This document shows positions 52,407-55,147 of a DNA stretch of 64,000 nt, one piece after another. The notes below the pieces were generated by a model. It was not told the origin of the DNA. It worked only from the letters and a program-made list of their open reading frames with translations, and searched no databases. Location: positions 1 to 64,000 of the forward strand of contig VHBC01000011.1 of NCBI GenBank assembly GCA_016872115.1, given 5' to 3'. The position numbers and the translations under genes are program-made. This stretch comes from Sphingomonadales bacterium. GTDB lineage: Bacteria; Bacteroidota; Bacteroidia; Flavobacteriales_D; Crocinitomicaceae. The number at the start of each line of letters is the position of its first letter. Within the stretch, counting starts at the first letter, position 1.

Positions 52407-53186
52407 GTGAAGAAACTATATAAATTCCTACTTAACAAATTACCGCGACCGCTGCTCATTCGGCTCAGTTACGTCTTCCGCCTTTTTGCACCTGCCTTGT
52501 ACAAAGGCGACGCCGTTCATTGCCCAGTTTGCGGAAAATCATTTTCTAAATTTTTATCTTACGGTTCTGAAGTGGCTCACCGCGAGAACGTTCTCTGCCC
52601 TTATGACCTTACACTCGAACGCCATCGCCTAATGTGGCTTTATCTCAAAAACCATTCTGACTTCTTTTCAAAACCTGATCTCAGCGTTTTGCATATGGCT
52701 CCAGAGCAATGTTTTATCGATCGTTTCAAGGCTCAACCAAACTTAAACTACCTCACTGCAGACCTCGTTTCACCTATTGCAGACCTCCATTTTGACCTCC
52801 ACCAAATCCCGCTCGAAAACAACCGTTTTGACGTCGTGTTTTGTAACCATGTCATGGAACATGTTGCAGACCCAATTCAATGTATGTCTGAACTCTTCAG
52901 GGTGCTCAAGCCCGGTGGCTGGGCCATTATGCAAGTTCCGCAAGATTTCTCTCGAGAAACCACATACGAAGATCCAACCATTATATCCGAAGCAGACCGC
53001 GAAAAACATTATTGGCAAAAAGACCACGTCCGACTTTTTGGGCGCGACTACCCAACCTATTTGGAACGCGTTGGTTTTGAGGTAACTTCCTTTGATTTAA
53101 ACGCCAATTATAGCCAAGAAGACATCCTTCGCTTTCGCCTCATGAAAGAAGAAGTTTTGTATATTTTTACCAAACCGATTGTATGA
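52407..53186 (+). CDS. Class I SAM-dependent methyltransferase with Cys-rich N-terminus
   Basis: A 259-residue protein read from GTG 52407. The N-terminal part has CPVCGKSF (39-46) and a later LCPYDL, which may bind Zn. The methyltransferase-11 core has FDVVFCNHVMEHVADPIQCM and RVLKPGGWAIMQVP. Motif I, which normally binds SAM as E/DxGxG, reads LHMAPE here, a variant found in a subfamily of these proteins. The substrate is unknown. The stop overlaps the next gene by 4 nt (ATGA). Confidence 0.82.
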   Translation: MKKLYKFLLNKLPRPLLIRLSYVFRLFAPALYKGDAVHCPVCGKSFSKFLSYGSEVAHRENVLCPYDLTLERHRLMWLYLKNHSDFFSKPDLSVLHMAPEQCFIDRFKAQPNLNYLTADLVSPIADLHFDLHQIPLENNRFDVVFCNHVMEHVADPIQCMSELFRVLKPGGWAIMQVPQDFSRETTYEDPTIISEADREKHYWQKDHVRLFGRDYPTYLERVGFEVTSFDLNANYSQEDILRFRLMKEEVLYIFTKPIV

Positions 53187-54157
53187 AAATATTTGCCTTG
53201 ATTTTAAGCGTTCTTTTTGTGCTCAGTTCAAGTGCGCAAAAAAATATTTTCTTGAACATCCAACCCGTTTTTGGCACGCAGCCTTTTGTTTTAAACCAAA
53301 CTTACATCGGTAACGACGGCGTAGTAGTCGAAATTGAACACTTCAACTATTACCTCTCTGATGTCATTCTTTTTCATGACAACGGACAGCAAACCAATTT
53401 GCCTACCGATATCTGGTTAGTGACGCCTACTCAGAACAGCTTATATTTAGGCTACCTAAATGTAAACCAAATCGATTCTATCAACTTTACTGTTGGTGTT
53501 CCAAAACGCTACAATACCCAAGATGGCGCCTTAGCTCAAGACATTTCTACTTACCCCGAAACGCATCCATTAAGCTTTCAAAGTCCTTCGATGTATTGGG
53601 GTTGGTCTTTTGGCTACATGCACATGATTGTGGGCGGCAACGCAGATAGCAATAACGACAACATTCCGAATGCCTACTTTGAATTGCATAACCTCGGCGA
53701 CAACAACCAACAAAATGTGCGTCTAAACACCCTTCAAACCAATACTGTAGCTCAAATAGACCTCAACTTAAATTGTCATGTAGACCGCTGGCTTAATCAA
53801 ATTGCCCTTTCAAATATCGGCGTAGTTCATGGTCAAGCTGGTCCAAACCTAACCATTCTCCAAAATGTCAATAGTCAAGAAGTGTTTACACTTGCAGCCA
53901 ATGCCGGTTTAAGTGAAAATAACAGCCAAATGATTTCTTGGAGTCAAACACCAAATGTGCTTGTCCTTCACAGTAAAAATGAACTTTACGTGAACGGTTA
54001 TCAACTTTTCTCAAGCACCGGGCAAAAAATTCAAGATAGCCACGGTCAAGAGCCCACAGCACAAATTTCACTCGAGCAGCTCAGCTCCGGAAGCTATCTT
54101 TTAACCCTTACTATTAGCAACGGCCTGCAGCAAACGCTGCGCTTTGTAAAACCCTAA
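53183..54157 (+). CDS. MbnP family protein with T9SS sorting domain
   Basis: A 324-residue exported protein. A signal peptide (1-19) precedes an MbnP-type domain (about 20-245) containing FNYYLSDVILF and the family motif M137YWGWSFGY145 with two tryptophans. In related pairs (MbnP, and MopE/CorA-type proteins) a tryptophan is oxidised to kynurenine by the di-haem partner to make a copper site. The last 70 residues are a T9SS sorting domain (YQLFSSTGQKI ... LSSGSYLLTL), so this MbnP should reach the cell surface. The gene for the partner enzyme starts 4 nt downstream. Confidence 0.85.
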   Translation: MKIFALILSVLFVLSSSAQKNIFLNIQPVFGTQPFVLNQTYIGNDGVVVEIEHFNYYLSDVILFHDNGQQTNLPTDIWLVTPTQNSLYLGYLNVNQIDSINFTVGVPKRYNTQDGALAQDISTYPETHPLSFQSPSMYWGWSFGYMHMIVGGNADSNNDNIPNAYFELHNLGDNNQQNVRLNTLQTNTVAQIDLNLNCHVDRWLNQIALSNIGVVHGQAGPNLTILQNVNSQEVFTLAANAGLSENNSQMISWSQTPNVLVLHSKNELYVNGYQLFSSTGQKIQDSHGQEPTAQISLEQLSSGSYLLTLTISNGLQQTLRFVKP

Positions 54158-54160
54158 ATC

Positions 54161-55147
54161 ATGTGGCGCTTCGGAAGTATTGCCTTTACATTGCTCATCG
54201 GGTTCTTTGTTTTGCGCTGCGCAAACATTCAAGACCTCAACCTCAGTATATCTGTTCCAGCGCCTAAAGACAATCCACAAACAAATGCAAAAATAGCGCT
54301 CGGTCGTCAACTCTTTTTTGACAAACGCTTGTCTTTAGACGGAACTGTTTCGTGTGCAACTTGTCATAACCCGAGAAAAGCTTTTACCGATAACTTGGCA
54401 AAAAGCCTTGGCATCAACAGTCAACTCAGCGAGCGCAACGCACCGAGCATACTCAATGCGGCATTTTTAAAAACAGCCATGTTCGATGCACACTTGCAAA
54501 CGCTTGAGCTGCAAGTTATTGTCCCAATTCAAGAGCCCGTAGAAATGGGGCACAATATGAAGAACCTCATCAAACAATTGCGCCAAATTCCGGAATATCA
54601 AGCGGCAGCACAAGCTATTTACGGACGCGATTTCGATGCGTGGGTCCTCACGCGCAGTATTTCGGCTTTTGAACGAAGCTTACTTTCCATGAATGCGCCA
54701 TTTGATCAGTTCATAGCTGGCAACCATAGCGCCATGACAGCCAACCAAAAGGCGGGCTGGAAACTTTTTTCTGAGGAATTATATTGTACAAAGTGTCATC
54801 CTGCACCCTATTTTACCACCTTCGAAGCAGCCAACAATGGGCTATACGCGGATTATAACGGTAAAACAGACCAGGGCCGCTTTCGTATTCATCACGACTC
54901 TAGCGACATCGGCAAATTCAAGATCCCAAGTTTGCGCAACCTGCCGCTTACCTTTCCCTACATGCACGATGGCAGTCTTCAAACAATGGATGCTGTCCTT
55001 GCTCATTACCAGAGAGGCGGCGCCAAACATCCACTTCAAAACAAAGAAATTACGGCTTTTGAGCTCAGTCAGAAAGAAAAAGAACAACTCCTGGCTTTTT
55101 TTTATGCTTTGGTCGATACTTCTTACCTCCGCAGAAACGGCTTTTAA
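54161..55147 (+). CDS. Di-haem cytochrome c peroxidase-family enzyme, MbnH-like
   Basis: A 328-residue lipoprotein (signal 1-19, lipobox cysteine C20 in FVLRC). It has two haem-c motifs, C65ATCH69 and C209TKCH213, and the di-haem peroxidase core (GRQLFFDKRLS, RNAPSILNA, LRNLPLTFPYMHDG). Near twins next to MbnP genes modify MbnP rather than reduce peroxide, by analogy with MauG/MbnH. The gene lies 4 nt after the MbnP gene and forms a clear two-gene unit with it, so the MbnH role is favoured over a stand-alone CcpA. Confidence 0.85.
   Translation: MWRFGSIAFTLLIGFFVLRCANIQDLNLSISVPAPKDNPQTNAKIALGRQLFFDKRLSLDGTVSCATCHNPRKAFTDNLAKSLGINSQLSERNAPSILNAAFLKTAMFDAHLQTLELQVIVPIQEPVEMGHNMKNLIKQLRQIPEYQAAAQAIYGRDFDAWVLTRSISAFERSLLSMNAPFDQFIAGNHSAMTANQKAGWKLFSEELYCTKCHPAPYFTTFEAANNGLYADYNGKTDQGRFRIHHDSSDIGKFKIPSLRNLPLTFPYMHDGSLQTMDAVLAHYQRGGAKHPLQNKEITAFELSQKEKEQLLAFFYALVDTSYLRRNGF

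Follow-up and report, generated by a model that had tools for sequence, protein, structure and literature searches.

A T9SS-tailed MbnP-family protein and a neighbouring di-haem enzyme lacking the inter-haem tryptophan: a possible surface copper site in Crocinitomicaceae

Could two adjoining genes of a Crocinitomicaceae bacterium encode a copper-binding protein of the cell surface and the enzyme that completes its metal site? The question is raised by positions 53183-55147 of the DNA analysed here, called the window, which covers positions 1-64,000 of the forward strand of contig VHBC01000011.1 (GCA_016872115.1; Bacteroidota, Crocinitomicaceae). An open reading frame (ORF) for an MbnP-family protein of 324 amino acids (53183-54157) is followed, after a gap of 3 nucleotides (nt), by an ORF for an MbnH/MauG-like di-haem protein of 328 amino acids (54161-55147); both, like all window features named below, lie on the + strand. 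The ORF positions agree with the first-pass annotation of this DNA, which had read the genes as an MbnP/MbnH-type pair, with the MbnP ending in a sorting domain of the type IX secretion system (T9SS), and had proposed a surface copper route without methanobactin. The type of the pair was recognised well, and we consider it reasonably probable that it yields a T9SS-exported surface protein with a kynurenine-type Cu(I) site, made with a neighbouring enzyme that works like BthA of Burkholderia. The enzyme lacks the tryptophan (Trp) between its two haems, and enzymes without this residue adjoin nearly all tailed MbnPs whose neighbours could be read.

The first gene begins with a signal sequence, as judged by eye, and its product matches the MbnP domain PF20243 in a profile search (95.1 bits, cut-off 27). 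Its AlphaFold2 model shows two domains at a mean predicted local distance difference test (pLDDT) of 90.1, and residues 19-240 (53237..53902) resemble MbnP of Methylosinus trichosporium (7l6g_C; Z 17.4, root-mean-square deviation (rmsd) 2.8, 201 aligned residues, 12% identity). Weak matches to capsid proteins also came from the PDB with the sequence as query (best E 0.0053, over the W-G-W stretch), and these were taken as chance matches because the profile and fold searches give MbnP. The motif M137-Y-W139-G-W141-S-F-G-Y, singled out earlier for its candidate tryptophans, is present to the letter. Both Trp of its WxW core (W139-G140-W141, 53597..53605) are unchanged in 139/139 aligned MbnP relatives, and W139 is the candidate kynurenine by the rule that the first Trp of WxW is converted, which we presume to apply here. 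In M. trichosporium MbnP the copper site is reported to consist of a His, a Met and a kynurenine from that first Trp. Candidate ligands in the window protein are His169 (53687..53689), kept in 138 of the 139, and His216 (53828..53830), a position with His in 117 and Met in 18. The sole MbnP without His169 (L165, 4492-5514) has Ala instead; no di-haem gene adjoins it, and an Arg-type enzyme (Arg at the inter-haem position) lies about 2.8 kb off. When the PDB was searched with a profile built from the 139 MbnPs, T9SS sorting domains came up and 7l6g was not among the matches, and therefore the copper ligands of 7l6g were not transferable by alignment. The pattern of conserved residues suggests that the window protein may have a two-His copper site of the kind found in MopE and CorA, in which copper lies near two His and kynurenine (PMC3423442). 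In CorA the kynurenine is at 2.9 Å from the copper, outside the first sphere (PMC3912023).

Export to the surface is the better supported half of the question. The C-terminal domain of the MbnP, residues 249-324 (53927..54154), matches the T9SS type A sorting domain TIGR04183 at 26.3 bits (cut-off 23) and PF18962 at 20 bits, under the cut-off of 27, and in the model it resembles T9SS cargo domains, first the C-terminal domain of RemA in its translocon-bound form (8gl6_D; Z 11.9, rmsd 1.5, 75 aligned). The sortase PorU, the one T9SS part that was searched for, is encoded in the same genome (NF033707, 1265.8 bits, cut-off 420). The sorting domain reported earlier is thus borne out, and the protein is very likely exported by the T9SS.

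The partner belongs to the CCP_MauG family (PF03150, 173.8 bits) and misses the NCBIfam equivalog for MauG in tryptophan tryptophylquinone (TTQ) biogenesis (TIGR03791; 219.5 bits, cut-off 443.85). The best fold match of its model (pLDDT 89.1) is MbnH (6e1c_A; Z 34.4, rmsd 2.2, 303 aligned, 34% identity), followed by di-haem peroxidases (Z about 32), MauG (about 30) and BthA (27.6). The first-pass annotation had called it a di-haem lipoprotein. The two haem motifs stand, with CxxCH at residues 65-69 (54353..54367) and 209-213 (54785..54799). The lipoprotein part is weaker and depends on Cys20, which is preceded by Arg; Arg before the Cys is atypical of a lipobox. Of 65 relatives whose inter-haem residue is Phe or Tyr, 27 have Arg or Lys directly before the first Cys of residues 1-45, and 4 lack a Cys in this stretch.

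The residue that sets this enzyme apart is Phe108 (54482..54484), which aligns with the inter-haem Trp of both 6e1c and the peroxidase 3o5c. The remaining active site is as expected: Gln118, Pro122 and Glu128 of the distal pocket (54512..54544), His269 and Tyr283 (55007..55009) are all in place in the alignment. Tyr283, at the axial ligand position of the MauG type, matches 6e1c, and the Met axial ligand of the classical bacterial cytochrome c peroxidase (bCCP), seen in the 3o5c column, is not present. An inter-haem Trp is present in MauG and in the characterised bCCPs, and BthA, which has Ser at this position, still forms bis-Fe(IV) and needs its Tyr and Glu (PMC6405878). Phe108 with an intact Tyr and Gln/Pro/Glu pocket is therefore a combination like that of BthA, and the window enzyme should work like BthA, not like MauG. 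Across 144 distinct relatives the inter-haem position holds Phe in 63 (one of them the gapped L153), Trp in 52, Arg in 17, Met in 6, Ala and Tyr in 2 each, and Ser and Val in 1 each; the distal Pro and Glu are invariant in all 144, and Gln and Tyr are kept in 138 and 135, respectively. Nine of the 144 enzymes, all adjoining short MbnPs, lack the axial Tyr as well as the Trp (L011, L015, L016, L020, L026, L029, L030, L032 and L079; Phe in 7, Lys in 2), and these are perhaps no longer high-valent enzymes.

Such a protein could also be an ordinary periplasmic peroxidase that does not have the MbnP as its substrate. Its best PDB sequence match by E-value is the peroxidase 3o5c, peroxidase folds come close behind MbnH, and BthA reduces peroxide with an artificial donor (PMC6405878). 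However, the axial Tyr replaces the Met of 3o5c, MbnH is the best fold match, and the enzyme gene starts at most 20 nt from the MbnP gene in 92 of 95 tailed relatives, and we therefore find this explanation very unlikely.

Support for the pair as a functional unit comes from its relatives. An MbnP was counted as tailed when its sequence, measured from the beginning of the WxW, exceeds 160 residues; by an alternative length rule 89/139 MbnPs are tailed, and TIGR04183 matches 75/139 at E 0.01, tailed and short taken together. Identical stretches were merged for the linkage count and L153 was excluded, an apparent MbnP-enzyme fusion that we rejected as its join is a run of N; it is still part of the residue counts (144 enzymes, 139 MbnPs), the tree of 90 enzymes and the methyltransferase count below. 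Merging required identity across a stretch of 110 residues, and near relatives therefore weigh heavily in the numbers. A di-haem gene adjoins 95 of the 99 tailed MbnPs: at least one was fully read in 88, only a cut gene was seen in 7, and 4 had none. In 87 of the 88 readable cases a Trp-less enzyme is among them (Phe 60, Arg plus Trp 13, Arg 7, Tyr 2, Trp plus Arg 2, Phe plus a cut gene 1, Ser plus Trp 1, Met 1). The exception, L171, has a Trp enzyme only, and shares its assembly with L170, a tailed MbnP beside an Arg-type enzyme. These 87 Trp-less enzymes all keep the Tyr, the distal Pro and the Glu, with Gln in 84 and His in 3. The 63 short MbnPs adjoin Trp enzymes only in 42 cases, both kinds in 3, a Trp-less enzyme alone or with a cut gene in 10, only a cut gene in 3 and none in 5; with at least one Trp-less enzyme beside 13 of the 63, these enzymes are not exclusive to tailed MbnPs. 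Outside the order, all 9 tailed MbnPs found among 20 stretches (picked for long reading frames from phylum-wide matches, and judged tailed by length) adjoin an Arg-type enzyme; these are included in the 99.

In a tree of the 90 enzymes, with the column of the inter-haem trait masked, 41 Trp enzymes including MbnH 6e1c cluster together (93/92), apart from the Trp-less ones, and one Trp row, L094, is placed among the latter. The Trp label changes 3 times on this tree, compared to a mean of 30.1 when shuffled, and the window enzyme belongs to a branch (100/100) whose 19 rows have Phe in 18 cases and Tyr in 1. Since the Trp-less enzymes are largely one branch, the link between tailed MbnPs and Trp-less enzymes is mainly the result of shared descent, and not of many independent events.

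The genome of the window has two MbnP and two CCP_MauG matches, which form exactly two pairs. The second (L002, 343-2154, contig C4) consists of a lipoprotein-like MbnP with the motif MHWGWNPGY and a di-haem enzyme of 357 amino acids, and this enzyme has the inter-haem Trp. It is possible to imagine a division of labour, in which the Trp-bearing paralogue at the second locus makes the kynurenine and the Trp-less enzyme takes another step, for example a second oxidation at the two Trp of WxW or electron transfer. One enzyme of each kind in the genome of the window would fit this, as would the genes for both kinds in tandem after a single tailed MbnP in 16/99 cases (13 Arg plus Trp, 2 Trp plus Arg, 1 Ser plus Trp). 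Against it, only a Trp-less enzyme is encoded in the relative G025 (98% complete), whose single MbnP gene and single CCP_MauG gene are the tailed pair with Phe, and next to tailed MbnPs the Trp-less enzymes have an otherwise intact active site, as counted above. We consider a division of labour unlikely, and it is the rival that needs most attention. Among the 36 genus relatives, 28 have as many CCP_MauG matches as MbnP matches and the other 8 have one extra CCP_MauG. The order MbnP, Trp-less enzyme, Trp enzyme is frequent in other families (13/99 tailed cases), and an old tandem cassette may have been split in the group of the window, the tailed MbnP keeping the Trp-less enzyme and a lipoprotein-like MbnP the Trp enzyme; the direction of this change is inferred. 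As a side observation, L189 (1675-5471, minus strand) has a lipoprotein-like MbnP, a Trp enzyme, a tailed MbnP and an Arg-type enzyme in one row.

In the favoured scheme of a BthA-like neighbouring enzyme, the MbnP would be taken into the periplasm by Sec, where the enzyme, using peroxide and a high-valent haem of the MauG/BthA type, would oxidise one Trp of WxW, most likely W139, to kynurenine. Together with His169 and His216 the kynurenine would complete a Cu(I) site of the two-His kind known from MopE and CorA. The T9SS would then move the folded protein across the outer membrane, and PorU would cut off the C-terminal domain and attach or release the protein. The enzyme is part of a Bacteroidota branch in which the inter-haem Trp was lost and the Tyr ligand and the Gln/Pro/Glu pocket were kept. 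In a broader and more tentative form, which we rate somewhat below an even chance, this would be a surface copper-capture cassette of Bacteroidota, with a T9SS-exported MbnP and a dedicated MbnH-like branch that makes kynurenine without the inter-haem Trp, a residue long regarded as important for this type of reaction, and whose ancestors shared their substrate with a Trp-bearing enzyme encoded in tandem.

Several observations weigh against the scheme. Both proteins fall under the cut-offs of the NCBIfam equivalogs, the MbnP with 43.3 bits (TIGR04052, cut-off 140) and the enzyme with 253.1 bits (TIGR04039 for MbnH, cut-off 362.85), and judged by these scores they are relatives, not close orthologues, of MbnP and MbnH proper. 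The ligand roles of His169 and His216 are putative and assigned by conservation, and no copper genes were recognised beside the pair in family searches on five window proteins. MauG requires its inter-haem Trp to stabilise bis-Fe(IV) and to make TTQ (PMC6405878), the Trp-bearing enzyme at the other locus of the same genome could do the job, and M. alcaliphilum grew faster after its di-haem partner gene had been knocked out, and the authors proposed that the Trp is oxidised non-enzymatically (PMC3912023). The chemistry is likewise what we infer: the kynurenine, the copper binding, the order of events and copper uptake as the purpose. The low identity to 7l6g across the fold, the equivalog score and the missing copper genes would also suit a tailed MbnP that has drifted to another role, such as binding another metal or adhesion, with only the fold kept. 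Nevertheless, the WxW is invariant, His169 is nearly so, and the di-haem partner is kept in 95/99, and we regard drift as the least probable of the explanations.

How new is such a system? The most similar known pair is MbnP/MbnH of Methylosinus trichosporium OB3b (7l6g, 6e1c), which is alike in both folds, the WxW, the Tyr ligand and the adjacent genes, whereas the window pair has the T9SS tail, Phe for the inter-haem Trp, His216 and no MbnB match in its genome. The earlier remark that no methanobactin peptide gene is seen agrees with the lack of a match to MbnB (TIGR04159), the only methanobactin gene searched for, and in this one genome. A paper of 2013 already reported MbnP/MbnH pairs well outside methanobactin operons, at a time when a copper link was not shown for the close MbnP homologues (PMC3621798). 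In MopE/SACCP of Methylococcus capsulatus and in CorA/CorB of Methylomicrobium album, the gene of a surface copper protein is co-transcribed with that of its di-haem partner and no methanobactin operon is needed. Their export route differs from the T9SS of the window pair; SACCP is found on the surface with MopE, and CorB is mainly periplasmic (PMC3912023). Methanobactin-free pairs and surface copper proteins with di-haem partners are thus already known. The first-pass annotation is partly supported: its pair type and T9SS domain hold, with PorU in the genome, the missing MbnB match and the conserved WxW and candidate His. It had been silent on the lost inter-haem Trp, the MbnH score under the cut-off, the separate branch and the second pair. 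On the enzyme side, BthA also has its inter-haem Trp replaced and shares the Tyr/His haem, Gln, Pro and Glu, but it has Ser where the window enzyme has Phe and its relatives Arg and others, the identity is 25%, and the excerpt of the paper tells of no MbnP link. MauG of Paracoccus also has two haems and the Tyr ligand and oxidises Trp in a partner protein, but it differs in substrate and product and, unlike the window enzyme, keeps Trp93. Neither a T9SS-exported MbnP nor a Trp-less MbnH is the subject of a paper among the matches listed from open-licence literature, and as far as these matches show, export of an MbnP by the T9SS and the branch of Trp-less partners are new. If the scheme is true, kynurenine copper sites would extend to T9SS-displayed surface proteins of Bacteroidota without a need for methanobactin, with MbnB sought in one genome. 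In addition, Trp-less and Trp-bearing enzymes adjoin related substrates, sometimes in one operon, and therefore the need for the inter-haem Trp in the oxidation of a partner Trp is testable with native pairs and mutants, which offer a natural test of this mechanistic question.

Directly upstream of the pair lies an S-adenosylmethionine (SAM) methyltransferase gene (52407..53186; PF08241, 56 bits), whose 3' end overlaps the start of the MbnP gene by 4 nt. The pattern PSM[YH]WGW[ASQ] was run across the genome collection and gave 321 stretches, 312 of which are relatives; the best 80 of these were read, and the record titles are mostly Crocinitomicaceae, Cryomorphaceae and Flavobacteriales. When recurrent neighbours in 80 named loci were grouped by similarity, without annotation, the methyltransferase cluster recurred in 60. 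A methyltransferase gene is directly upstream of 62/100 tailed and 2/67 short MbnPs, and none of the 62 loci has an Arg-type enzyme; we treat this link as specific to the lineage of the window's group of relatives. MbnP is present in 58/60 genomes of the genus and order and in 78/296 genomes drawn across the phylum, the own genome included in both. Three loci (L078, L079 and L080) have two consecutive short MbnPs, and in L078 and L079 a pair of di-haem genes comes after them. Four loci (L097, L113, L115 and L128) are titled Chryseobacterium gleum, Chitinophaga pinensis or Polynucleobacter meluiroseus, yet they resemble those of the window's group, and their species names are probably wrong.

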